Of a DNA stretch of 32,243 bases, positions 5,609 to 18,990 are shown in pieces. Source of the DNA: Microcaldota archaeon (GTDB lineage: Archaea; Micrarchaeota; Micrarchaeia; Micrarchaeales; Micrarchaeaceae); the NCBI GenBank assembly GCA_021827605.1, contig JAKAVF010000042.1:1-32243 (forward strand), read 5' to 3'. Within the stretch, counting starts at the first letter, position 1, and the number at the start of each line of letters is the position of its first letter. The position numbers and the translations under genes are program-made. The notes under the pieces were generated by a model. That model worked only from the letters and a program-made list of their open reading frames with translations, had not been told where the DNA came from and made no database searches.

Positions 5609-6820
5609 ATGGTGGCAAGCGACGATTTCAACGAAGACCTAATGAACATCATCAACGAAAGGCAGCAGATCTCATATGGGGAGCTGAGCGACATCGCGTT
5701 TTCAAGGGGCGTCGCGGAGAAGATGCTTAAGGACTCGCTTTCCGAGTTAGAGAGGGCGAAGAAAATCGCATCAAGAAGCAACGGCGGGATCTTGACATAT
5801 TACCTCCTACAGGGGGAGGACGGGATGAGGAAGGTGCTCATCGTCGAGGACGACAAGAACATCAACAAGCTCATGGCGCTTTCCATCGGGAAGGGGTTTG
5901 ACATAACGCAAATCTACGACGGAGGCGAGGCGATCGCGGCCGTGAGGGAGAAGAGACCGGAACTTGTAATACTGGACCTGATGCTTCCGCACAAGGATGG
6001 CCTTGACCTATGCCAGACCATAAAGACAGACCCTTCGCTCAGGGAAACGGTCGTCATACTGATAAGCGCCATGGATCCGACGAGCAACAGGTTCAAGGGG
6101 ATAAAGTACGGCGCGGATTATTACATAAAGAAGCCGTTCGATCCGAGCGACCTAAGGAGCCTCGTTACCCTTTTCCTTAGGAAGAAGGGAAAGCGCTTCG
6201 ACCCGCTCATAGACCTGCCGGATGAGGAGAGGATATCCAAGCAGATAGAGCACTCGATAAGGCAGAACGAGAAATATGCCATAGGGGAGCTCAAGATTGA
6301 CAATCTGGGCACATACGCGAAGAGGTTCGGCGAGAAGTCGGCGATAGTCCTGCTCAGGCTGGTATCGCAGCTTCTTCAGGATGCGATAAGGAAGCAGCAG
6401 TCAAGCACATTTGTCGGTTTCCTGAACAGCGACGAGTTCATAGTTGCGGGAGCCCACGACAGCGTCGATGCAGTGGTGAAGGAGGTGCAGCAGGAGTTCG
6501 GTGCGGTGCTGCAGTTCGTCCTCCAGGACGCTGGATTCAAGCAGATAAATATAGACGTGGAGGCGCTCTTCGAATCCAAGGAGGCGCCCAAGCTCGCGCT
6601 TGTCTTCACAGAGGTTGACAAGGAGAAGCTGAAGGCGAGGAGGAACGAGGTGCTCAAGAGCAAGGGAGTCTCAGCCACCGCGCAGGAAGGCATAGGCTCA
6701 TACTCATATGACGAACTGCAGAAGATATTCGGCAAGGACGACCTTGATGTAATAATAACAAGGGACGAGAGCGGAGTAAGGCTGCAGGTCGGCAAGAGCG
6801 CCGAAGAGAAGGAGAAGTAA
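5609..6820 (+). CDS. Response regulator: winged helix + REC + degenerate GGDEF
   Basis: 403 residues from ATG 5609, chosen because GGTGA (5599-5603) precedes it by 5 nt; the frame is open further upstream to 5474 but that part is poorly protein-like. Residues 1-70 look like a winged-helix domain (QISYGELSDIAFSRGVAEKML). Residues 73-190 are a REC receiver: acid pair VEDD, phospho-acceptor Asp123 in LDLMLPHKDG, a Ser in the Thr/Ser switch position (LISAMD) and Lys in YIKKPF. Residues 200-300 follow the GGDEF fold pattern (DPLIDLPDEERISKQIEH, then IGELKIDN, then FLNSDEFIVAG), with NSDEF at 273-277 in place of GGDEF, so cyclic-di-GMP synthesis is unlikely. A last domain of about 100 residues is unassigned. 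It probably receives phosphate from the kinase at 696-2975. Confidence 0.88.
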   Translation: MVASDDFNEDLMNIINERQQISYGELSDIAFSRGVAEKMLKDSLSELERAKKIASRSNGGILTYYLLQGEDGMRKVLIVEDDKNINKLMALSIGKGFDITQIYDGGEAIAAVREKRPELVILDLMLPHKDGLDLCQTIKTDPSLRETVVILISAMDPTSNRFKGIKYGADYYIKKPFDPSDLRSLVTLFLRKKGKRFDPLIDLPDEERISKQIEHSIRQNEKYAIGELKIDNLGTYAKRFGEKSAIVLLRLVSQLLQDAIRKQQSSTFVGFLNSDEFIVAGAHDSVDAVVKEVQQEFGAVLQFVLQDAGFKQINIDVEALFESKEAPKLALVFTEVDKEKLKARRNEVLKSKGVSATAQEGIGSYSYDELQKIFGKDDLDVIITRDESGVRLQVGKSAEEKEK

Positions 6821-6854
6821 TAAAAGTATTGGCAGACCTGTTAACTCGATTCCG

Positions 6855-7388
6855 ATGAAGCAGCAGTCAGCTATAGACTTCATGACATCTTACGGCGTAG
6901 CCATGTTGATAGTGGTGATAGCGGCTTACGTAGTTCTCAGGCTTGGCATATTCACCGGGAACGTTGCGCAGCCGGTTTGCACCTCAGCGTCCTCGTTCTC
7001 ATGCGGCGCCCTCTCGCTTTCTACGAACGGGACCGTTACCTTCGTCCTGACGCAGGCTGTCGGAGGCACGATAGACATAGTAGGAGTGGCGTGCTCCAGC
7101 GGAATCAACACGGCAGGCACAGGTCCGGCATATGGAAACATAAACGTGCTGAACTACTCGGATGCGCCGCAGTATTACCCGAGCACTGCCCTACAGAGCG
7201 GCCTGCAGATGTACAGCGGCTCATCGAAGACGATACGGATAGGCTGCTGGGGTCCATTCGGCCAGTCGAAGGAGAACCTCGGCAATTCCTATACCGGATA
7301 CATATGGATCAACTACACCTACGAGGGCCTGCCATCGCACCTGTATACAGTTACAAGGGTCATAGATTTCGCTACGAAAGCGACTTAG
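6855..7388 (+). CDS. Type IV pilin-like protein with class III signal peptide
   Basis: 177-residue exported protein. The N-terminus has the class III signal shape: a short polar leader (MKQQ), SAIDFMTSYG, then a hydrophobic helix (res 14-33). In archaea such leaders are cut by a prepilin peptidase and the helix packs into pilus- or archaellum-like fibres. The remaining domain is beta-rich with paired cysteines (VCTSASSFSCG, GVACSS, IGCWG) and NxT sites. It aligns by eye with the first 150 residues of the protein at 27496-29016, sharing the C..FxCG segment, a GxACxx segment and TGYIWxxY, so the two are paralogues. It follows the response regulator by 34 nt and may be cotranscribed with it. The filament type is not determined. 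Confidence 0.8.
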   Translation: MKQQSAIDFMTSYGVAMLIVVIAAYVVLRLGIFTGNVAQPVCTSASSFSCGALSLSTNGTVTFVLTQAVGGTIDIVGVACSSGINTAGTGPAYGNINVLNYSDAPQYYPSTALQSGLQMYSGSSKTIRIGCWGPFGQSKENLGNSYTGYIWINYTYEGLPSHLYTVTRVIDFATKAT

Positions 7389-7433
7389 GCGGATTCGCCC
7401 GCTTAAGCAACACATTTAAAAGTTGACAGGCAA

Positions 7434-7439
7434 TATAAA
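7434..7439 (+). promoter_or_regulatory. TATA box for the 7473-9310 gene run
   Basis: TATAAA sits 34 nt before ATG 7473 in an 84-nt gap, with GGTAAT 3 nt before the start. This indicates a promoter that separates this run from the pilin gene. Confidence 0.5.
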
Positions 7440-7472
7440 GCTTGACACAGCGGTCCAAACGAAGGTAATCCA

Positions 7473-8996: not shown

Positions 8997-9310
8997 GCAT
9001 GAGCATGGATCCTAGGAAAGAGGCGAAAAAGCTAGGCTACAAGATAAGGTATGTAAACCATGACAGCATAAGAAAGGAGGTAGCCTGCTATAACGTTGTA
9101 TTTAACGGGAAAAGGATCGCACCGAAGGCCGCGCTGGAACGGTTGCACATTCCAAAGAACGAAATATGGATCTCAAGAAAGTATAAGAAGCATGGAGGAC
9201 TAATACTCTTCCATGAATTAAGGGAGATAGCCTACAGGTCGAGGGGCTACTCAGAGAAGAAAGCACACGAAATGGCAAGAAAGGCTGAAAGATTGTACAG
9301 GCCCGATTAG
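8993..9310 (+). CDS. Small basic protein with HELRE zincin-like motif
   Basis: 105 residues starting at ATG 8993 inside the 4-nt overlap with the previous gene; ATGs at 8999 and 9005 follow in frame. The C-terminal half holds LILFHELREIAYRSRGYS followed by KKAHEMA, that is HExxE with a second His 16 residues later, a pattern that could bind a metal as in compact zincin-like proteins. The N-terminal half is basic and beta-rich. Proteolytic activity is not shown: the motif is HELRE, so the second His of HExxH is Glu. The stop codon TAG (9308-9310) lies inside the D-arm start of tRNA-Asn, so gene and tRNA overlap by 10 nt. Confidence 0.7.
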   Translation: MSMSMDPRKEAKKLGYKIRYVNHDSIRKEVACYNVVFNGKRIAPKAALERLHIPKNEIWISRKYKKHGGLILFHELREIAYRSRGYSEKKAHEMARKAERLYRPD

Positions 9311-9372
9311 CTCAGCGGTAGAGCGACTGGCTGTTAACCAGTAGGTCGCAGGTTCGATCCCTGCATCGGGCG
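9301..9372 (+). tRNA. tRNA-Asn (GUU), integration target
   Basis: Full cloverleaf: acceptor GCCCGAT pairs with ATCGGGC, D-stem GCTC/GAGC, anticodon stem ACTGG/CCAGT around loop CTGTTAA (anticodon GTT), T-stem GCAGG/CCTGC with loop TTCGATC, discriminator G. No CCA is encoded. The 5' end overlaps the preceding coding sequence by 10 nt. From 9320 onward the sequence is repeated at 18668-18722, so this tRNA is the insertion site of the element and its 3' half is the left attachment copy. Confidence 0.97.
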
Positions 9373-9374
9373 CT
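9320..9374 (+). repeat. attL (tRNA-Asn 3' part)
   Basis: 55 nt matching 18668-18722 at 52 positions. The differences are 9327 C/18675 T, 9341 G/18689 A and 9356 G/18704 A. Confidence 0.92.
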
Positions 9375-9570
9375 CAAGTTTTTCGAGAGCGATGCCACGT
9401 TCGGAGCTAATCAGCATCCACGCTTCAAGCCAAGCAAAAACAGAGAAATCAGGTTCGAATTCAGAGAGCTTTTAGACGCTTTGGAAGAGGTTGCAAAAAC
9501 GCTGCCTCAGTCGAAGCTTGAAGAGATGAAGGCTTCGCTGCACAAGGTCTATAGTTACGGACATAAATAA
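9322..9570 (+). pseudogene. Integrase, middle fragment (intC part 1)
   Basis: An open frame runs out of the tRNA (SDWLLTSRSQVRSLHRAL) into KFFESDATFGANQHPRFK and a helical segment (FEFRELLDALEEVAKTLP), reaching ...SLHKVY at 9552 and then stopping at TAA 9568-9570 inside the IS end. There is no start codon of its own: the natural N-terminus is at the other end of the element (18622 onward). Joined to 10660-11364 after removing the IS, the frame is continuous. It corresponds to the core-binding region of the tyrosine recombinase, upstream of the catalytic domain. Confidence 0.85.
9552..9568 (+). repeat. IS630 left terminal inverted repeat
   Basis: Reads TAGTTACGGACATAAAT, inward from the left end. 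It contains the stop codon of the transposase ORF B (9555-9557). Confidence 0.8.
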
Positions 9571-10073
9571 CGTTGTATATTGAGATTAAACCTTTTGTAC
9601 CTGTAGTAGTGCGTCACCCTTTTTCTGAACTCATCATATGTGTCGTATATCTTGCTTCCTACAAGATAATCCTTACTCTGGTGCCAGCATTCTTCTGTGG
9701 GATTCAACTTTGAGGCTGCAGTGGGAAACGATACGACCTTTATGCAATCTTTATTTGCTCTGAGGTACTTCTTCACCCTCCAATGGTTGTGATATCCTGC
9801 CTTATCCCAAAACAAAATGAACCTCCTGTATCGATTCTTAAGAAGATATAGGAATTTTAGGGAAGTCTTCCAGTTGAACTTCCCAATATACTTCTTCTTG
9901 GCATTCTTGTCTGGATTTTTCATTCGTTTGTCATCCAAGACGAGAAAAAGTTGCTTCTTTTTCCTTGTCACTGCACCGAAAAGGTATAGTTTTCTTTTTG
10001 AACCTGTCGTCATTCTTATCGGAGTTTGTCCTTTCTTTATCCAAACTGCCTTGGAAATGGAGTCATAGTACAT
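9555..10073 (-). CDS. IS630 transposase, C-terminal DDE part (ORF B)
   Basis: 172 residues from the first ATG, but the protein-coding frame is open further upstream to the A-run at 10137-10144 and includes EDES, holding the first catalytic Asp, just before that ATG. The other DDE-type residues are in FILFWDKAGYHNHW (second Asp) and LNPTEECW (Glu). This is the RNase H-like catalytic domain that cuts and joins DNA at TA targets. Because the first Asp is upstream of the ATG, ORF B alone would be inactive; it needs fusion to ORF A through a -1 frameshift. The stop lies inside the terminal repeat. Confidence 0.85.
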   Translation of the reverse strand: MYYDSISKAVWIKKGQTPIRMTTGSKRKLYLFGAVTRKKKQLFLVLDDKRMKNPDKNAKKKYIGKFNWKTSLKFLYLLKNRYRRFILFWDKAGYHNHWRVKKYLRANKDCIKVVSFPTAASKLNPTEECWHQSKDYLVGSKIYDTYDEFRKRVTHYYRYKRFNLNIQRYLCP

Positions 10074-10123
10074 GATAGACTCGTCTTCGCATATTATCTC
10101 CCAGTTCTTTGGCGTTTCTTTAA

Positions 10124-10609
10124 TTATTCTTTTCGCTTTTTTTTAAACTGGTAGACTGCAGGTTTGCTCATTCTTCTATTCTCAGATCTAGGAACAACCA
10201 TGGCAAATCCCCACTTGTGGGCGATTCTGGTGATATGCCGATCTGTATAAACAACACCGGTCTCTTTGATAATGGTCTCCTTTATTCGTTTTGTTTCCCA
10301 TCCATATGGACTGCTTTCAAGTATAGATATTATCTTCTCTTTCTTCTTTTCTGGAATTTCAGATGGCCTTCCCGGAGGAGTTTTATATCTCAAACCTTCA
10401 ATGCCATCTTTACTATATGCAGCAACTATCAATCCAAGATGATTATAAGACATGTTTGCTTCTTTTGCAACATCTCTCCTTGGTCTTTTACTACATAGAA
10501 GTATGAGTCGGTATCTCTGCCACATCTTCACGTCTTTCTCCCTATGGAGAAGCCCCTTCAATCTCCCCTTGTCGCCCTTTCGAAGGGCCAATAAAACTGC
10601 CGGTCTCAT
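10124..10609 (-). CDS. IS630 transposase, N-terminal DNA-binding part (ORF A)
   Basis: 161 residues. Residues 30-75 form a helix-turn-helix (RDVAKEANMSYNHLGLIVAAYSKDGIEGL) followed by a GRPSEIPEKK linker and a second HTH-like region (WETKRIKETIIKETGV and YTDRHITRIAHKWGF), the paired-HTH layout of IS630 transposases that bind the terminal repeats. The frame ends soon after an A-run (YQFKKKRKE stop) where the catalytic half continues in the -1 frame. The fused product would be about 340 residues, normal for the family. Confidence 0.85.
   Translation of the reverse strand: MRPAVLLALRKGDKGRLKGLLHREKDVKMWQRYRLILLCSKRPRRDVAKEANMSYNHLGLIVAAYSKDGIEGLRYKTPPGRPSEIPEKKKEKIISILESSPYGWETKRIKETIIKETGVVYTDRHITRIAHKWGFAMVVPRSENRRMSKPAVYQFKKKRKE
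10135..10147 (-). other. Candidate -1 ribosomal frameshift site in the transposase
   Basis: Minus strand TTT AAA AAA AAG CGA (zero frame of ORF A) contains the classic slippery heptamer A_AAA_AAG. Slipping by -1 gives AAA then GCG and continues through TPKNWEIICEDES into ORF B. Without slippage ORF A ends four codons after the run. A simple one-base indel would look the same. Confidence 0.6.
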
Positions 10610-10642
10610 AAAGTCGCCTTTAAGATACCATTATACCACAAG

Positions 10643-10659
10643 ATTTAAGTCTTTTACTA
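10643..10659 (-). repeat. IS630 right terminal inverted repeat
   Basis: On the minus strand reads TAGTAAAAGACTTAAAT, matching the left end at 13 of 17 positions. TA at 10660-10661 is the right target-site copy. Confidence 0.8.
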
Positions 10660-11364
10660 TACAAGAAGAGGTTTATAACCGACAATAGACCGAAGTACGG
10701 CAGCATAAACAAAGGCTTCACTGAACTTGAACTGCAACATTTCCTCAGAAATGTTAAAAACGACAAGTTCAGGCTTCTTTTCAAGTATCAGGCTTATCTC
10801 GGCCTTCGAGTTGGAGAAGTTTCAAAGTTGCAGGTAAGCAACATCAACTTCGACAAACGAGAGCTGACGCTGATGAACGAAAAGTCAAAGAAAACTGACA
10901 CTCTGCTCATACCGCTAGAACTCTTTAAAGAGACAATAGAGTTCGTAAGCGGATATGCAAAAGAGATAAAGTCGGCAGGCGGCTATCTCTTCTTCAAAGA
11001 CCACACTTACAATACAAGAAACACCGAGCAGCACATAGACGTAAATTACGCCCGCAAGGTGTTCCGCGAAACCATAATAACATCAAACTTGAATGAAAAC
11101 TATGGCTATTCGGAAGAGACGTATCCTGACCACAAAGAAAGGCGTCTCTACCGGCTTACGACACATAGCCTTCGCCACTATGCAATAACGCATTTCGCGA
11201 AGGCAACAAACGGCAACGTAGTGCTCGCCAGCAGATTCGCTAGGCATTCCAAACCGACCATGACCATGCGTTATATAGGAAGAGACAACGAAGAGCTGTT
11301 CAAAAACATAGACTTCGCGTTCTCGGATAAAATGAGAACCATAAAAGAGTCGTTTCCAAGGTGA
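10660..11364 (+). pseudogene. Integrase, C-terminal catalytic fragment (intC part 2)
   Basis: The frame continues from the interrupted gene at TAC (10660-10662): YKKRFITDNRPKYGSIN, then the tyrosine recombinase catalytic domain with Arg in YLGLRVGEVSKL, HSLRHYAITHF (His-x-x-Arg), RHSKPTMTMRYIG (second His and the nucleophile Tyr) and a C-terminal SFPR. All catalytic positions are intact. Internal TTG or ATG codons could start a shortened product (for example from 10828), but that would lose the first Arg. Together with the middle and N-terminal pieces it gives a protein of about 326 residues, normal for SSV-type integrases. Now broken by the IS. Confidence 0.88.
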
Positions 11365-11526: not shown

Positions 11527-13422
11527 ATGTCAAATCAAACAGATTATACAAAAATGGTGTCCTTTCCTATGTCGGGAAAAACCAGAACAATAACAGCACA
11601 AATTGTTTCTGAATTAATGGCCATTGCTCCAATAGACGCAATCGAAGCTGGTGTTGTGAAGTACTTCCTTTATAAAAACCACATTAAAAACGTGCAAAAT
11701 TTACTTATAAAGAGTCTCACATCATCTGAAGCAGCAAAGCCAATATTTGACTATTTAGTAGAGAACAACCTAGAATTAGATATCCTAGATGTAGAGAAGC
11801 TCTTCGAACTTCTCATTCCAGAAAAAGATAAGCAATTGAACGGAGCTGTCTATACGCCTTCTTATATCGTTGACTATATAATCAGCATAACAGTAAACAG
11901 AATAGGTTATGTATGCGATCCCGCCTGCGGTTCGGGCGCTTTCCTATTAAGAGTATTAAAAAAGTTCAAGCAAATTGAATCAGATATTCCGTATACAGAA
12001 CTCCTCGAAAAATATGTGTATGGACTTGATATCTTGGATTACGCTATCCGTAGAGCAAAAATAATCTTGAGCCTCTTTTTACTAATTAATGGCGAGGACA
12101 AACCTGAAATCAACTTTAATCTTGTCATCGCGAATAGTCTTAAAGCAAACTGGAAAACCTTCTTCCCAACAATATCCTCCGGCTTTGATTTTATAGTTAG
12201 CAATCCACCATATGTAAGAATCCAGGACCTCTCCACCAGCAATAAAACAGCCTTAGCAAACCGTTGGATTGCAGCAGGAAAAGGCAACTTTAATATATAT
12301 TTTGCCTTCTTTGAATTGGGTTTTAACTTCTTGAACCCCTCCGGAAAGCTTGGTTATATAACACCTAATAACTACTTTACTTCATTATCCGGAGTCAGTC
12401 TACGCTCATATCTATCGGGAAAAGCAGCAATAACAAAAATAGTAAATTTCAACCATTTAAAACTTTTTGAAAATGCCCAAACCTATACGTGCCTGACTTT
12501 CCTAGAGAAATCTTATAAAGAAGACTATTTCGAATATTGCTATGTGGATGACAAAAATCTTCTCAAGAATCTTAGTGGATTAAAATTTAGCAAATACTAT
12601 TTCGCATGGTTAAACAACAAAAAATGGCGTCTCATGCCCGAGAATGATTATCGTAATATAAAAAAGATTGAGACAGCTGGTCTCCCACTAGGTAAAATTT
12701 GTCCAATTAAGGTTGGTATTGCAACTCTGAAAGATACTGTATTTTTTGTAGAAGACCTCGAAGGCGAATATTGTAAGGCATCCGCTAGTGGAAAAGAGTA
12801 CAACGTAGAGAAATCAATAACAAGAAAGGTGGTAAAAATCTCTTCCGTAGACAACGAAGAAGATATTCGTATGGATAAAAGACGAATAATTTTCCCGTAC
12901 GAAAAGATTGGTGGAACTTACAAACTTATACCTGAAACTAAGCTTAAGTTACAGTATCCAAATGCTTATGAATATTTGTTAGCTTCAAAAACGATTCTAG
13001 CCAAAAGAGATAAAGGTAAAAAAAGTTATCCTGCTTGGTATGCATTGGGAAGAACGCAAGGCATGGACTTCAAAGGTCCTCGTTTATATACTCGTACTTT
13101 TTCGCACTATCCGCATTTTATGTTAGATACGGCAGAAGACAACCTTTTCTGCAATGGGTATGCCGTCTTTATTAAAAAACCACAAATGAAGCACGTTAAA
13201 GCCATTCAAAGAATATTAAATTCAGAACTTATGGGTTACTATGTAAAAAGAACCAGCGTTGAGATAGAAGGTGATTATCAGTGCTATCAGAAAAACTTTA
13301 TCGAAAACTTCTCTATTCCTGATTTAACAGAAGCGGATTGGAATTATCTAGACACTGAGTCAGACTCTGCAAAAATAAATGAACGCCTATTGAGAATTTA
13401 TTCCCTCCATTCATTATTTTAA
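11527..13422 (+). CDS. N6-adenine DNA methyltransferase (Eco57I/TaqI-like)
   Basis: 631 residues; start ATG 11527 with GGTGAG 5 nt upstream. The SAM-binding motif I is DPACGSGAFL (about res 137-146) and motif IV is SNPPYVRIQD (about res 225), the NPPY form of amino-methyltransferases acting on adenine. A motif X-like YTPSYIVDYI precedes motif I, so the order is X-I-IV (gamma class). The C-terminal half (about 290-620) fits a target-recognition region, with TRTFSHYPHFMLD and AEDNLFCNGYAVF as in type II and IIG enzymes. No N-terminal nuclease is fused. Its 3' end overlaps that of the putative endonuclease on the other strand by 9 nt. The gene is visibly more AT-rich than the chromosomal genes, a sign of transfer. 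Confidence 0.9.
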   Translation: MSNQTDYTKMVSFPMSGKTRTITAQIVSELMAIAPIDAIEAGVVKYFLYKNHIKNVQNLLIKSLTSSEAAKPIFDYLVENNLELDILDVEKLFELLIPEKDKQLNGAVYTPSYIVDYIISITVNRIGYVCDPACGSGAFLLRVLKKFKQIESDIPYTELLEKYVYGLDILDYAIRRAKIILSLFLLINGEDKPEINFNLVIANSLKANWKTFFPTISSGFDFIVSNPPYVRIQDLSTSNKTALANRWIAAGKGNFNIYFAFFELGFNFLNPSGKLGYITPNNYFTSLSGVSLRSYLSGKAAITKIVNFNHLKLFENAQTYTCLTFLEKSYKEDYFEYCYVDDKNLLKNLSGLKFSKYYFAWLNNKKWRLMPENDYRNIKKIETAGLPLGKICPIKVGIATLKDTVFFVEDLEGEYCKASASGKEYNVEKSITRKVVKISSVDNEEDIRMDKRRIIFPYEKIGGTYKLIPETKLKLQYPNAYEYLLASKTILAKRDKGKKSYPAWYALGRTQGMDFKGPRLYTRTFSHYPHFMLDTAEDNLFCNGYAVFIKKPQMKHVKAIQRILNSELMGYYVKRTSVEIEGDYQCYQKNFIENFSIPDLTEADWNYLDTESDSAKINERLLRIYSLHSLF

Positions 13423-14241
13423 CGCTTTTGTAGACCCGTGTCTTTGCTCATAAATCTTCAACAAATCCTCAATAAAGCTACTAATAGTCAGACCCTCTAT
13501 TTCATACCTTTTCCCCTCACTTTTTTCAATGAAACCCTCCTTTATCAGGTCTTCCGTAGAAGATATTACCTTTGGCTCTTTACCCCTAAAATCAACAATC
13601 AAAAGGCAAACCCGTTCGTATTTATGCTCCGCTCCTTTTACAGATATTCTGCTATTAAGCTCTTGGAATGCAGGTATGTACTTTATTGGAAGCTTCTCTC
13701 TAAACTCTATCGCCTTTCGCTCAATTGCATCAGAATCATAAGCATACAACGGCACCATATATAGCTCTCCCATCACCAATTCTGGCGTCCTAAGATGTAA
13801 ATTAAGCGGTTCGGCAAAAGTTCTCTCAAACAGAGTATCAAAGTTCTTCGATAAACTGCTTAACTGGCTTCTGATGTTTATACAAAGACTCTTAGACATA
13901 ATCGGCTTCCCAAGTTTGTCTGTCTCTCCAGCTAAAACTCCCTCTAGTATCTCCTCCGGCTTTGGATTTTCTGGCAAAACCGAAACATCCTGATCTTTTT
14001 CCTTCAAGAATCCAGCCATCTTAATTTCGGGACTATTATGTCCTAAAGGTGGAAATATCTTGGCAGGTGCTACGCCAGCACTTACCAACTCTGCTTTTAT
14101 ATATTCATGCAAAATCGCAATAAGCTTTTTCGAACGAATGAGAGACGTGGTCCCTGCACCGCCATCCTTTACTATCGCCGCTTCGTAAGTACTCTTAATT
14201 TTCGTCAATGCCGCAATTAAGTTCTTGCCATCTTTATCCAT
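13414..14241 (-). CDS. Putative type II restriction endonuclease
   Basis: 275 residues from ATG 14241, preferred over GTG 14250 because AGTGAT lies about 4 nt before it. The region GHNSPEIKMAGFLKEKDQDV (about res 85-105) has a Glu, a Lys and a QDV end resembling the catalytic strand of some PD-(D/E)XK restriction enzymes, and the length suits a type II enzyme. The rest shows mixed helix/strand segments with no other landmark. The strongest argument is position: it is convergent with the methyltransferase with overlapping 3' ends, as in restriction-modification pairs. The family and target sequence are not recognised, and a different element-borne function cannot be excluded. Confidence 0.6.
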   Translation of the reverse strand: MDKDGKNLIAALTKIKSTYEAAIVKDGGAGTTSLIRSKKLIAILHEYIKAELVSAGVAPAKIFPPLGHNSPEIKMAGFLKEKDQDVSVLPENPKPEEILEGVLAGETDKLGKPIMSKSLCINIRSQLSSLSKNFDTLFERTFAEPLNLHLRTPELVMGELYMVPLYAYDSDAIERKAIEFREKLPIKYIPAFQELNSRISVKGAEHKYERVCLLIVDFRGKEPKVISSTEDLIKEGFIEKSEGKRYEIEGLTISSFIEDLLKIYEQRHGSTKALK

Positions 14242-14281
14242 AAATATCACTCATAATATTTAGATGGATAATTTAAGAACT

Positions 14282-14698
14282 TTAGTCCTGCCCAAGTTTA
14301 GCATATCTTTGCTGTTTTAATGATAAAACGTAGATAGGCACACCAAAATTAAATCTTTCCGCTCTCTCCGTACTCCCTTTCAAATACCCATAACCGGTAA
14401 TACCGATAGCAATATCTGGTTTTATCTGAACAATCTTCTGAAAACTCTTGTATTTCACGTTATATTTGTGATCGTATTCGATAGCAACCCTAAACTTACC
14501 TTTCCTAGCGACTAGGTCTATCCTTCCAGACCTACCGCTCTTATCCGTCATAGCGTATATCGGATATTCCTTCGTAGTGTAGAAGCCTGCTTCTCTGAAT
14601 ATCCGCTCTATATCGCTTACAGTGTCGTTATGTTCTTGATATGGGCTAACTTTGATGAGCTTGTAGAGTATTGGTTTCATATCATAAGCTTCGGTCAT
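14282..14698 (-). CDS. Small PD-(D/E)XK-like nuclease
   Basis: 138 residues. A central GRIDLVARKGKFRVAIEYD stretch places Asp61 and Glu74 with the spacing of the PD-(D/E)XK fold, though the usual Lys is Asp76 (E-Y-D); Lys84 and Lys88 in the following helix might substitute. A strand KPDIAIGITGYG follows, as in Holliday-junction-resolvase-like and plasmid nucleases. The start ATG overlaps the stop of the upstream ATPase gene by 4 nt (ATGA), so translation is coupled and the two proteins probably act together. Catalytic activity is inferred only from the motif pattern. Confidence 0.6.
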   Translation of the reverse strand: MTEAYDMKPILYKLIKVSPYQEHNDTVSDIERIFREAGFYTTKEYPIYAMTDKSGRSGRIDLVARKGKFRVAIEYDHKYNVKYKSFQKIVQIKPDIAIGITGYGYLKGSTERAERFNFGVPIYVLSLKQQRYAKLGQD

Positions 14699-16920
14699 AT
14701 ATGCACCAATAGATACTCGTCCGTTTTGCCTTTCCTGTACTGCTTTATCGCGTCAAGTACTTCCTGATTCCAAGAGACCCACGTTAATGGCAGACCGTAT
14801 TTATCTGCTCTATCTCCATGGTCTTGAATCTTGACCTTAGTGGCTGTGGTCTGTATCTCATAGCCACGTCTAGCCTTGTCGTTCCATAGATATTTGCGCC
14901 TATCATCAATTGGATAAGCGACCAAATCGACACAGTCGTAAAGTTCTGTGTCGGTCTTATCTTCTGGCTCAGGCACAACCACGAGCATGAACCTCTTCTG
15001 AAGTTGCCTTATCGTCTCCACCAGTATGCGCTCGTGCAGAGTCGAACCGAGCCTGCTTTTATCGGTTTCGAGAATCCAGCTTGGATCAACCCAGCGAAGA
15101 CCAGCGTCGGTCAATCCAAAGCGGTCGTCGCTTTGCTCTGCAAGCTTTAGCTTCAGCAGAGTCTCGAATATTCCCGGTCTTCCCGGCGAGCCATAAATGG
15201 TATGATTTGCCTTAATCAAACCGGTCTCTTTGATAGAGTTTGTTATATCGACCTTCTTTCTACCTTGGTTGTTGAATATGGCGAGCAATCCGATATACTG
15301 CGTAGGTGTCGGTCTGTCCTTTGGCGGAGGCCAGTGCAGAGTCTTAGGTCGTCTTTCCTCGACCTTCTCTGCCTGCTTGGTGGTGGTCTTTGCCATGTCT
15401 ATTGGCAATTCAGGTTCTTCCAGAACCTTTGGCAGATATGCCTTCTCTGTCCGCTTGACGGCATCAAGCTCCTCTTCGGTTATCTGCCTGACCTTGACGT
15501 AGTCCGCAAACTTCTGGCCTTGCTGCGCTCTAGATTGGTCGAATACGAAACCTTCGCCAATCCCGGCAGTCTCAAGGTATGCGCTCTCGAACTTGCCAAG
15601 GCCGAACACGCTCTTTGCACTGTTCAGGAAGCTTGCGTCGCGATAGTTGTGGATTATCCTAATCGCGCTTGAGTTCATGAAAGGCTTCGGTATGTCCTCC
15701 ATCTGCTGGGTGCTTACCACCATGCCGAAGCCGTACTTCCTGCCGAGCCTTACAATCCTGCTCGGCAGCGACTCAAAGACCTGATCGCCCTGCGTCTGGC
15801 TTTGCAGGACAGCCCAGGCTTCGTCCAGAACCAACAACATTCGTATGTTTTGGTTAAGCTCCGGCTGTTTGTTGAAGAATTCTACTATCCTCTGGAACAC
15901 GGAGTATGCGACCACGCTCTTCTCGTTCTCGTTCAGCCCTGCAAGGCTGATGATATTGTTGCGTGTGAGCATCCCGTTCCAGAATTCTTCAGGCTCCGTG
16001 CCGAAGACACGCTGCACGGTCCTTAGCCTCTGGTCTATCCAGTTGGCGTATTGCCTCTCTTCCTGAGTGGCCTTCCTGTCCTTACGGACCTTGTCTATGT
16101 CCTGCCATAATTCCATTAGCGTGGGCGGCGCATGCCCGGCGTAATGGTCTAGGACGATAGTTCTTATCATGTTTGACTGCAACGGCGTCAGATGCGCGCC
16201 GAACTGGAACAGTTCGGCTATGCTGCTGGCTCTGTCAGCTATGCTCGCATCGCGCAGCATGAACGGATTGATCTTGAACTGCTTGCCGGCCTTCCAGACG
16301 GTAGCGTTGATCTTCTGCGCCCATCCTTCGGATTCGCCGTTCCAGTCTATTATCAGGAAGCGGAGCTTGTACTCAAGCGCAGCCCTGATCAGGAAAGCCC
16401 TGAGAGTGGTGGTTTTCCCAGAACCCGACCCGCCAAGAATTATCGCGTGTGGGTTTGGTTCCTTTGGATAGTCGAGGATGTATTCCGACGTATCCCCCGC
16501 CATGATAGGCTTTGCCTTGTCTCCGTCGTCGTCCCCAACGACGTCTGTGAAGTGCGAGGTCTCGACGTAGTGCTTGTAGCGAGTGCCGAGCCTGATGCCC
16601 TTGTCATCGGACTTCTTGACTTTGAGTTCGCCGTAGTAGTTCCCTCTTAGCAGGAGCAGGAATCCGGGAACTATGAAGAAACCGGCTATGAACCAAAGTC
16701 CAAGTGCTCCCCAGACACCGAGCGGCGCCCAGAAGAGGATCAGGAAGATTGCTGGCGCTACGAATAGATAGCCGACCCAGAAAAGAGCGGTGTAAACGAG
16801 GTGTCTCTGAAAGTAGTGAGTGGAATGCCATCGCGCGTGTTCAGGGTTTATCCTGTTGCGCAGGTCTTGGATGGCATTGTTCACGTTGATTTTGATATCG
16901 ATGCTCGATTTGCCGCTCAT
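14695..16920 (-). CDS. Membrane-anchored VirB4/HerA-like ATPase with nuclease-like tail
   Basis: 741 residues. Two or three hydrophobic helices lie at about res 40-95 (ALFWVGYLFVAPAIFLILFW, then a second cluster). The motor follows: Walker A GGSGSGKTTTL (about 163-173), Walker B LLVLDEAWAVL (about 358-368) and QQMEDIPKPFMNSSAIRI downstream, as in conjugation and HerA/FtsK-type DNA-pumping ATPases. After the motor there is a winged-helix-like part (about 550-620: QGRKKVDITNSIKETGLI) and a last domain with VDLVAYP (Asp665) and GYEIQTT (Glu688, Gln690) that resembles a PD-(D/E)XK site. Start: ATG 16920; TTG 16929 is in frame, and an AT-rich TATA-like box at 16948-16956 fits either. Coupled to the small nuclease downstream. 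Probably moves or processes element DNA at the membrane. Confidence 0.82.
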   Translation of the reverse strand: MSGKSSIDIKINVNNAIQDLRNRINPEHARWHSTHYFQRHLVYTALFWVGYLFVAPAIFLILFWAPLGVWGALGLWFIAGFFIVPGFLLLLRGNYYGELKVKKSDDKGIRLGTRYKHYVETSHFTDVVGDDDGDKAKPIMAGDTSEYILDYPKEPNPHAIILGGSGSGKTTTLRAFLIRAALEYKLRFLIIDWNGESEGWAQKINATVWKAGKQFKINPFMLRDASIADRASSIAELFQFGAHLTPLQSNMIRTIVLDHYAGHAPPTLMELWQDIDKVRKDRKATQEERQYANWIDQRLRTVQRVFGTEPEEFWNGMLTRNNIISLAGLNENEKSVVAYSVFQRIVEFFNKQPELNQNIRMLLVLDEAWAVLQSQTQGDQVFESLPSRIVRLGRKYGFGMVVSTQQMEDIPKPFMNSSAIRIIHNYRDASFLNSAKSVFGLGKFESAYLETAGIGEGFVFDQSRAQQGQKFADYVKVRQITEEELDAVKRTEKAYLPKVLEEPELPIDMAKTTTKQAEKVEERRPKTLHWPPPKDRPTPTQYIGLLAIFNNQGRKKVDITNSIKETGLIKANHTIYGSPGRPGIFETLLKLKLAEQSDDRFGLTDAGLRWVDPSWILETDKSRLGSTLHERILVETIRQLQKRFMLVVVPEPEDKTDTELYDCVDLVAYPIDDRRKYLWNDKARRGYEIQTTATKVKIQDHGDRADKYGLPLTWVSWNQEVLDAIKQYRKGKTDEYLLVHI

Positions 16921-16929
16921 CCCCCTCAA

Positions 16930-17116: not shown

Positions 17117-17524
17117 ATGACAGAACACAAATCAGCAGAACAAAAAGACGACGTGCTCGAAGAGCTGTTCGTTGACAGAGCTACAGTGCTGGACCAAAGT
17201 GTCCTTAAGGATATGTTGAAGGATCGTATCCAATTGACAAAAGAGGGCAGCGTAATGCCGCTCCCGCAGTTTCACACATTGAAACGCGACCAAAGAGTAC
17301 TTCTAGCATTGCTGGCTCAGAAGGTCATCAAAATTAAACTTGGTGGCGAAGAAAAGCTCACGCCTGGAGCCATTGTCGCAATAACAGGTATGCCAAGAGG
17401 CACCGTAGCCCCCACAGTTAGAGACCTCGAACGCGATGGCTATATCAGGTCAGAAAAGGGAGCATATTGGGTTCCTGACTCTTTGCTTTACAAGGCACAG
17501 CAGATATTAACACCGCAAAAGTGA
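17117..17524 (+). CDS. Winged-helix regulator of the element
   Basis: 135 residues; AGGAGAT lies 4-5 nt before ATG 17117. The first 30 residues are acidic and helical; residues 65-130 form a winged helix: helix LLALLAQKVIKIKL, then LTPGAIVAITGMPRGTVAPTVRDLERDGYI as the recognition region and a wing SEKGAYWVP, as in MarR/TrmB-like archaeal regulators. It is divergent from the ATPase gene across a region full of inverted repeats, which are its likely operators, so it may control both the ATPase operon and its own three-gene run. Effector and partner are unknown. Confidence 0.75.
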   Translation: MTEHKSAEQKDDVLEELFVDRATVLDQSVLKDMLKDRIQLTKEGSVMPLPQFHTLKRDQRVLLALLAQKVIKIKLGGEEKLTPGAIVAITGMPRGTVAPTVRDLERDGYIRSEKGAYWVPDSLLYKAQQILTPQK

Positions 17525-17528
17525 TTGA

Positions 17529-17936
17529 ATGGATCAAGAAATACAACAAAGATTCGAAGCACTGGAAAAAAGACTTGCAGTAGTTGAAGAGCAGAAGGTA
17601 GTATCGCCGCAACCTGCGTCTCAACCAACGAAGGAAAAGTCGGTTGGCGAATTCCTTCAAGAGAAGAAGCCGAACTCAGACCCGAAGAAGACCAGAGCTA
17701 TTGCCTATTACCTCGAACACTACAAAGGGTATACGTCGTTCACGTCTGAGGACATCCAAAAAGGTTATCAATCAGCGAAAGAACAGGTTCCAACCAATAT
17801 AGCCGATACGATAGGTAAGAACATCGCCGGTCGTTTTATGATGTCGGCACAAAAGAAGGATGGCAAGCGAGCATGGACCCTAACAACAACAGGAGTAAAG
17901 AATGTCGAGGCTGGCTTCAAGGGTGGTGAAGAATGA
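17529..17936 (+). CDS. Coiled-coil plus helical DNA-binding-like small protein
   Basis: 135 residues, starting 4 nt after the regulator stop. Residues 1-25 are a coiled-coil (QQRFEALEKRLAVVEEQ) for oligomer formation, then a Pro/Gln-rich linker, then a helical domain (about 52-130: TRAIAYYLEHYKGYTSF, DIQKGYQSAKE, and a wing-like RAWTLTTTGVKNVEA) of the kind seen in archaeal plasmid winged-helix proteins of the helix-helix-strand type. Cotranscribed with the regulator and with the next gene, whose start overlaps its stop by 4 nt. Function unrecognised; partition or accessory DNA binding are options. Confidence 0.65.
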   Translation: MDQEIQQRFEALEKRLAVVEEQKVVSPQPASQPTKEKSVGEFLQEKKPNSDPKKTRAIAYYLEHYKGYTSFTSEDIQKGYQSAKEQVPTNIADTIGKNIAGRFMMSAQKKDGKRAWTLTTTGVKNVEAGFKGGEE

Positions 17937-18229
17937 CAGAACAACCACGAACAAAGCGCGAACTCAAAATCTGCAACAAAATAATACAGTATACGATTAT
18001 TTTGCAGGAAGATTCAGGTCCTCACGAAGAGGGCTACGACCGCGTCACAGCAAGACGCAAACAGCTTTACCAAGACCTCGACCAGATTTGTCTGAACGAC
18101 CCAGAAAGATATGATGCCAACATGTTTTACATAAAGGCGCACATTAAGAAGACGAGGCCATCATGGAAAGCGCGGTTGGGTTTCACCGGCCCCGTTCCAC
18201 ACGGCGAAGTCGAAGTAGGAAACAAGTAG
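17933..18229 (+). CDS. Element-encoded small protein, unknown
   Basis: 98 residues, ATGA overlap with the preceding gene. The sequence is basic and mostly helical in the first 80 residues (KRELKICNKIIQYTIIL, DRVTARRKQLYQDLDQI), ending with a Gly/Pro/Glu-rich tail. No signal peptide, membrane segment or named motif. It is the last gene of the regulator run, followed within 12 nt by a hairpin that may end transcription. Coupled translation suggests it works with the coiled-coil protein. Confidence 0.55.
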   Translation: MTEQPRTKRELKICNKIIQYTIILQEDSGPHEEGYDRVTARRKQLYQDLDQICLNDPERYDANMFYIKAHIKKTRPSWKARLGFTGPVPHGEVEVGNK

Positions 18230-18572: not shown

Positions 18573-18621
18573 GCTCAATGGTTGAAAAGAGCATGTAGAA
18601 ATCAGGTTCGAATGGTTGAAT

Positions 18622-18750
18622 ATGCTTGGTGGAAAGGTGGAGAGCAAAAATAGAGCTTTGTATTCAGAGAGCGATTGGCTGTTAACCAATAGGTCGCAGG
18701 TTCAATCCCTGCATCGGGCGCTTACCTTCAAGTTCTGCTGTAATCAATGA
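18622..18750 (+). pseudogene. Integrase, N-terminal fragment (intN) at right end
   Basis: From ATG 18622 the frame MLGGKVESKNRALYSESDW runs straight into the att core in the same frame as the left fragment (LLTNRSQVQSLHRAL), then passes into chromosomal sequence and stops at 18748-18750. In the excised circle the frame would continue as LKFFESDATFG at 9373 onward. Partition of the integrase at its N-terminal part is the hallmark of SSV-type integration. TTG 18616 is a possible earlier start, and the open frame reaches back to an upstream TGA near 18580. Confidence 0.75.
18668..18722 (+). repeat. attR (tRNA-Asn 3' copy)
   Basis: Second copy of the tRNA-Asn 3' part. The 5' acceptor and D-arm strands are missing, so it cannot fold as a full tRNA. 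Two of its three differences from attL (18675 T and 18689 A) keep the anticodon-stem pair intact. Confidence 0.92.
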
Positions 18751-18810
18751 GCAGGCTGAAATAAACTGAAGGCATTTAATACTATTAAGTATAAACATTT
18801 GTGTGAGACT

Positions 18811-18990
18811 ATGGCAAATGTAGAATTTGAGTTTACCAAAGATGGGCCTGTGCTTGTTAAAATGGATGGCGAGGTCGTTTATGCACTGTGCAGATGCGGC
18901 CATTCAACCAAGAAGCCGTTCTGCAGCGGGGCACATGTGAGCGCGGGATTTAAGGCAGATGCATCAAAGCTTGAGCTAAAGAAAAATTAA
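18811..18990 (+). CDS. CDGSH-type iron-sulfur protein
   Basis: 59 residues from ATG 18811 (a TTG at 18799 is in frame). The motif CRCGHSTKKPFCSGAH (about res 28-43) matches the CDGSH pattern C-x-C-x2-(S/T)-x3-P-x-C-x-G-x2-H, three Cys and one His that bind a [2Fe-2S] cluster; CDGSH itself is CSGAH here. Family members carry electrons or sense redox state. It is the first intact gene right of the element, with no partner gene. Confidence 0.85.
   Translation: MANVEFEFTKDGPVLVKMDGEVVYALCRCGHSTKKPFCSGAHVSAGFKADASKLELKKN

Follow-up and report, generated by a model that had tools for sequence, protein, structure and literature searches.

What does a membrane-anchored DNA pump do when it ends in a nuclease-like domain of its own and its gene runs directly into that of a second, small nuclease-like protein: does it move a mobile element's DNA, or does it destroy the DNA of invaders? 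The gene pair that raises this question lies on contig C10 of a Micrarchaeota genome of 971 kb (completeness 91.5%); we refer to the whole stretch of DNA analysed, 32,243 nucleotides, as the window. The original prediction had read the pair as a coupled ATPase-nuclease DNA-processing module, comprising a VirB4/HerA-like membrane motor with a winged helix and a C-terminal D...ExQ site and, starting across its stop codon, a separate protein with a D...ExD site. These features are all present in the sequence, and conserved sites, predicted folds, recurrent linkage of the two genes and purifying selection support the coupled module.

A motor and a small protein with two nuclease-type sites

The features of the pair, with the evidence for each, are as follows.

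14695..16920, minus strand: VirB4/CedB/HerA-like motor with a C-terminal winged helix and PD-(D/E)XK-type domain (Pfam AAA_10/DUF87/FtsK, NCBIfam)
16648..16788, minus strand: two predicted transmembrane helices of the motor, residues 48-66 and 76-94 (hydropathy)
14698..15324, minus strand: winged helix and PD-(D/E)XK-type domain of the motor, residues 536-744 (alignment, AlphaFold, Foldseek)
14926-14928, 14857-14859 and 14851-14853, minus strand: codons of the C-terminal site, D668, E691 and Q693
14282..14698, minus strand: small PD-(D/E)XK-type protein, 138 aa (ORF; conserved sites, AlphaFold model, Foldseek, locus clustering, dN/dS)
14516-14518, 14477-14479 and 14471-14473, minus strand: codons of the small-protein site, D61, E74 and D76

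Counted from the ATG at 16920 the motor has 741 aa, and from a TTG at 16929 it has 744 aa (ORF 14695-16929, minus strand); residues are numbered here by the 744-aa version; its stop codon and the ATG of the small protein overlap by 4 bp. Both reading frames are longer than expected by chance: shuffling the larger gene gave a longest open frame of 244 aa, against the real 744 aa, and shuffling the smaller one gave a frame of at least 138 aa in 0.1% of shuffles.

Intact Walker A (GGSGSGKT, residues 166-173) and Walker B (LLVLDEA, residues 365-371) motifs, together with Pfam matches over the cut-offs to AAA_10 (7.5e-11), DUF87 (5e-9) and FtsK (FtsK_SpoIIIE, 1.5e-8), place the motor, by sequence, in the FtsK-HerA superfamily. 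Because the best NCBIfam models for the motor domain are CedB (9.8e-20), the VirB4 of mycoplasma integrative and conjugative elements (4e-14), CedD (1.5e-13) and VirB4_CagE (3e-12), the motor appears most like DNA-transfer ATPases. These CedB and VirB4 scores all lie far under the equivalog cut-offs, and at 70.7 bits against the 700 bits set for CedB, the motor resembles CedB without being classed as one. The motor also matches a PHROG model for the terminase large subunit (5.8e-12), which raises the question of DNA packaging. We consider such a role very improbable: no capsid or other virion gene was recognised among the elements examined, no homolog was found in IMG/VR, the C-terminal domain has no homolog in phage records, and A32-type packaging ATPases are unlike this motor with its predicted transmembrane anchor and C-terminal nuclease-type domain. 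A precedent for such a role exists in archaeal double-jelly-roll viruses, whose DNA is packaged by FtsK-HerA ATPases (PMC6563490).

D668, E691 and Q693 do not vary among the 21 C-terminal domains aligned, nor do H632, W682, T694 and A696, and the E-x-Q arrangement is a BglII-type variant of the PD-(D/E)XK motif. The AlphaFold model of residues 536-744 (mean pLDDT 89.9) consists of a winged helix followed by helix, three strands, helix and strand, the order of the PD-(D/E)XK core, with D668 opening the second strand and E691-x-Q693 within the third (site placement in this model and in that of the small protein was read from secondary-structure strings). Foldseek supports this fold weakly: matches to FokI, Ecl18kI and Bax1 are mixed with Rossmann methyltransferases, and a viral structure library contributes Vsr-like, MmcB-like and competence-protein-like entries alongside viral proteins of winged-helix type.

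The small protein has the same core order, helix, three strands, helix and strand, in its AlphaFold model (mean pLDDT 82.9), with D61 opening the second strand and E74-x-D76 in the third, and many PD-(D/E)XK structures are among its best Foldseek matches, the top ones including EcoT38I, Hjc resolvases, OkrAI, BglII, AF1548, McrC and Bax1 (all E>0.001). For neither model did Foldseek return a match at E<=0.001. Across the 10-11 small proteins aligned, R59, D61, E74, Y75, D76, H77, K82 and K84 are invariant. The motif reads E-x-D instead of E-x-K, the canonical lysine of PD-(D/E)XK is absent from this site and from that of the C-terminal domain, and the invariant K82 and K84 might substitute for it. 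Between the window and the sister genome G008, the first 110 codons of the small gene give dN 0.034, dS 0.79 and dN/dS ~0.04, from which we conclude that the protein is under strong purifying selection. Given the conserved acidic residues and modelled folds, we infer that the C-terminal domain and the small protein may both be DNA-cutting nucleases. The original prediction named a non-nuclease fold of the C-terminal domain, or variable Asp and Glu positions, as grounds for rejecting it, and neither was seen. A profile comparison gives the two domains a 0.3% probability of homology, which leaves an origin by duplication unsupported.

The pair had also been put forward as possibly undescribed. 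This holds for its parts, in that neither the isolated C-terminal domain nor the small protein has a convincing family in Pfam, NCBIfam, PHROGs, PADLOC or PDB sequences (one small-protein member has a weak Pfam Hjc match), and the viral, phage and plasmid collections searched contain no relative of either; it does not hold for the overall kind of system, which, as discussed below, is already known.

The element in the tRNA-Asn gene

Around the pair, on either side, lie the features listed here.

9301..9373, plus strand: tRNA-Asn(GTT), the integration target (ARAGORN, Rfam)
9320-9374, plus strand: left attachment site, the 3' part of tRNA-Asn (direct repeat)
9379..9552, plus strand: N-terminal part of a tyrosine integrase, severed by an insertion sequence (tblastn with the intact integrase of the related locus L070)
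9555..10609, minus strand: IS630-like insertion with a DDE_3 ORF at 9555-10073 and an HTH ORF at 10124-10609 (Pfam DDE_3, HTH_32/HTH_33)
10639..11364, plus strand: C-terminal part of the tyrosine integrase (Phage_integrase 6e-8, PHROG integrase 6e-16; the listed ORF begins at 10828)
11527..13422, plus strand: type II DNA methyltransferase, cargo (PADLOC MTase_II 2e-135, Pfam Eco57I 2e-27)
13414..14250, minus strand: type II restriction endonuclease, cargo (PADLOC REase_II 1e-71)
17117..17524, plus strand: 135-aa MarR-like winged-helix protein (MarR_2 8e-6, slightly under the cut-off)
17529..18229, plus strand: two small genes, 17529-17936 (135 aa) and 17933-18229 (98 aa), without an assigned function
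18668..18722, plus strand: right attachment site, repeating 55 bp of the tRNA-Asn 3' part at 94.5% identity (direct repeat)

A tyrosine integrase, a tRNA target, flanking direct repeats and an empty site in a relative are all found, and on these sequence hallmarks the pair sits inside a 9.3-kb integrative mobile element in the tRNA-Asn gene. The empty site is that of sister genome G008 (L169), in which the left flank is collinear and 88% identical through tRNA-Asn, the element is missing and the gene that follows is presumably DUF1801-like. Much of the element is lower in G+C. In genome G010, a contig end falls within the apparent right end of the same element. The integrase reads out of tRNA-Asn, and its C-terminal part is 67% identical to the L070 integrase. 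Because the IS630-like insertion splits the gene, near the position equivalent to residue 79 of the L070 protein, the window's copy of the element is probably immobile; in the related L069 element the integrase is intact and the attachment repeats are identical. A decayed fragment of the C-terminal domain, with a stop, lies beside another tRNA-Asn of the same genome (contig C45 of G000, L144, 3587-4096) and is likely what remains of an earlier element of this kind.

The MarR-like protein is probably a regulator of the element. The two small genes have no counterparts among the related loci examined, and no membrane helix is predicted in the products of any of these three genes. Family searches recognised neither a pilin nor a VirB6/CedA-type channel in the element, nor a coupling protein of type IV secretion, a relaxase or a gene for replication. 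A comparison for repeats showed the attachment repeat and scattered short matches, and no clt-like array was recognised.

These gene contents bear on whether the pair could serve maintenance inside the cell, resolving junctions or dimers, segregating copies or repairing DNA once the element is excised. In that case the small protein would act like the resolvase Hjc and the motor like the pump FtsK. Hjc structures rank high among the fold matches of the small protein, the weak Hjc match of one member points the same way, the motor matches Pfam FtsK and a transfer apparatus is unrecognised in the element. We nevertheless think this reading quite unlikely, since the motor is closer to CedB and VirB4 than to FtsK, a membrane-anchored motor with two nuclease-type domains exceeds the needs of junction resolution, and the element has no replication gene that we could find.

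Recurrence of the pair in a family of elements

A search through 301 genomes of the phylum yielded 33 with the C-terminal domain and 21 with the small protein; both occur together in 12, against 2.3 expected (P=6e-8), and in 11 of these 12 they lie close together on the same contig. All positive genomes belong to two families of one order of Micrarchaeota; the named relatives are Candidatus Micrarchaeota MAGs, and two contigs of one bin carry a Nanoarchaeota label. All-against-all clustering of the ORFs of 12 loci yielded three widely shared families only: the motor or C-terminal domain (12/12), the small protein (11/12, or 12/12 with an HMM match in L095) and the integrase (9/12). For the two proteins of the pair, a Mantel test on nine loci shows correlated distances (r=0.52, p=0.0035); the correlation of small-protein with integrase distances is not significant (r=0.25, p=0.08).

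The elements of this family measure ~9-14 kb. The pair is found with an integrase at tRNA genes in L056 (Ala), L067 (Arg), L069 (Asn), L070 (Asn), L071 (Arg) and L072 (Lys), and four of the elements, those of the window (55 bp), L056 (52 bp), L069 (59 bp, 100%) and L067 (29 bp), are bounded on both sides by copies of the 3' end of the tRNA in direct orientation. The available stretches of L070, L071 and L072 contain no second attachment copy. Cargo, which often separates the motor gene from the small-protein gene, differs from element to element: an N6-methyltransferase and a restriction endonuclease in the window; Vsr, an Eco47II-type restriction endonuclease and a C5-methyltransferase in L069; a BsaWI-type restriction endonuclease and a methyltransferase in L055; a methyltransferase and a GmrSD/Mrr/AlbA_2 fusion in L056; a restriction endonuclease and a methyltransferase in L072; DUF6602 in L071; and a large methyltransferase-type protein in L067. 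Because the pair recurs with the integrase while restriction-modification and other cargo varies, we regard it as part of the element's core and not as defence cargo.

The same pattern weighs on the proposal that the motor and the nucleases degrade invading DNA, in the manner of HerA-DUF4297, HerA-Sir2 or DndFGH-type systems, which we consider unlikely. That proposal draws on matches of the motor domain to the PADLOC HMMs mad8 (4e-19), DndH and HerA, on the restriction-modification genes next door and on the known HerA-nuclease defence pairs (PMC11291478). The PADLOC matches, however, are confined to the generic motor and do not exceed in strength those to CedB; the element has no Sir2, DUF4297 or NurA partner and no Dnd modification genes; and the pair persists while all defence cargo changes, with the integrase as its sole other constant partner. 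Of the two uses first suggested for the pair, transfer of an element or action against invading DNA, the evidence thus favours handling of the element's own DNA and disfavours defence.

Two classes of motor can be told apart, with 16-21% identity from one class to the other and 39-80% inside each, whereas identity among the C-terminal domains is 33-62% over all pairs and is given as 36-62% or 33-56% across motor classes. Since domain identity stays this high across classes, two distantly related pumps appear each to have been joined to the C-terminal domain, and on sequence it is this domain, rather than the pump, that is the travelling partner of the small protein. The fusion to two pump classes suggests that a recognition-plus-nuclease domain, rather than a pump, defines the element family.

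By hydropathy, no N-terminal helices are predicted in the motors of L069, L070 and L057, and the membrane anchor is, on these predictions, not universal among family motors. Upstream of the anchorless L069 motor lie four small genes (5882-7471), some with predicted membrane helices, that might provide it with a channel or anchor; small membrane proteins are predicted in the L056 and L067 loci as well as in L069. Three loci are motorless, retaining the small gene and a partial C-terminal domain (L071, 10837-11277; L072, 6036-6407; L058 on contig C22 of G008, 18593-18826), and may be decaying or non-autonomous derivatives. Many broken remnants of the small gene in the related genomes G005, G035, G044, G050, G063, G073, G074, G077 and G124 suggest frequent gain and loss of elements. 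L057 of G008 also holds a gyrase/topoisomerase A-like gene (11978-15763, 1261 aa) with an apparent in-frame intein-like insert.

A proposed role in DNA transfer and its known counterparts

From the sequences and by analogy with known systems, we suggest that the pair, on balance, probably processes and translocates the element's own DNA for transfer from cell to cell. In our model, a hexameric motor would sit anchored in the membrane, the C-terminal winged-helix/nuclease domain and the small nuclease would recognise, cut or trim the excised element DNA, the motor would pump the processed DNA through the membrane toward another cell, and the integrase would insert it into a tRNA gene of the recipient. 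The module would form a relaxase-free minimal transfer set, comparable in its action to TdtA-NurA of ICETh1 or to the TraB protein of Streptomyces elements. The cutting, the membrane translocation, the cell-to-cell transfer and the direction of movement are putative throughout. In favour of transfer, the nearest NCBIfam relatives of the motor, CedB, CedD and VirB4, are DNA-transfer ATPases; the reading is weakened by the absence of ComEC and of any recognised channel or pilin, by the anchorless motors and by the three motorless loci. As ComEC is not detected in the host genome (91.5% complete), a recipient route through natural competence, as used by ICETh1, is not evident.

More tentatively, and with some doubt, we speculate that these elements encode a minimal relaxase-free and pilus-free DPANN transfer machine, in which the fused winged-helix PD-(D/E)XK domain of a swappable membrane pump recognises and cuts the element's origin and the second, small nuclease aids it. 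If this were true, three genes would suffice for excision, processing, export and re-integration, and would carry restriction systems between tiny archaea. A three-gene core that recurs in one archaeal order is a small, testable candidate machine, and it touches on how mobile DNA moves among ultra-small DPANN archaea and how archaeal transfer proceeds without recognised relaxases. The elements also offer restriction systems a route of spreading among Micrarchaeota.

Several known systems share parts of this arrangement. TraB of Streptomyces is membrane-anchored and is not known to have a nuclease domain. As is proposed for the present motor, TraB serves small elements as the only pump, a hexamer that moves dsDNA, recognises DNA through a C-terminal HTH and needs no type IV secretion (PMC5365140). 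It is FtsK-type and actinobacterial, and clt-like repeats were not recognised in the window's element. The pT26-2 family of Thermococcales and Methanococcales likewise comprises integrating plasmids with a VirB4/HerA-like ATPase proposed for transfer (PMC6972569), although these are 17-38 kb in size with seven core genes and many membrane proteins, and the likeness is by description only. The HerA-NurA end-resection pair also joins a HerA-type pump to a nuclease, but it is a repair complex, NurA has the RNase H fold (PMC9905601) whereas the partner here has a different predicted fold, and NurA was not found in the host genome. The Sulfolobales Ced proteins CedB and CedD, together with TedB, are VirB4/HerA-type ATPases with membrane helices that act in archaeal DNA movement (PMC11868833); Ced, in contrast, imports chromosomal DNA with CedA/CedA1, and the Ced models span no C-terminal winged-helix/nuclease domain. 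In archaeal Ced/Ted transfer, HerA-NurA has been proposed to produce the transferred strand instead of a relaxase (PMC9905601).

The closest counterpart in organisation is ICETh1 of Thermus thermophilus, an integrative element of similar size (14.9 kb, with 47-bp direct repeats) in which the HerA-like TdtA adjoins a NurA-like nuclease and the Tth111II restriction-modification enzyme; deletion of TdtA abolishes donation, and deletion of the nurA-like gene cuts transfer by 4-5 orders of magnitude (PMC5365140). The resemblance to ICETh1 in sequence concerns the motor domain. No DNA-binding domain is recognised in TdtA, the nuclease beside it belongs to the NurA family rather than to PD-(D/E)XK, and transfer runs through the recipient's competence system, whose key gene comEC was not found in the Micrarchaeota host. 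With ICETh1 combining a HerA-like motor, a nuclease and restriction-modification (PMC5365140), and with CedB and CedD anchored in the membrane, the view that the arrangement could not be placed was too strong. A search of open papers found no description of such a pair or element in Micrarchaeota. An element-borne HerA-like pump with a nuclease and restriction-modification is thus already known, and what is new, as far as searched, is the fusion of a winged-helix PD-(D/E)XK-type C-terminus to a membrane pump, shared by two motor classes and paired with a second family that matches no model of the libraries searched.
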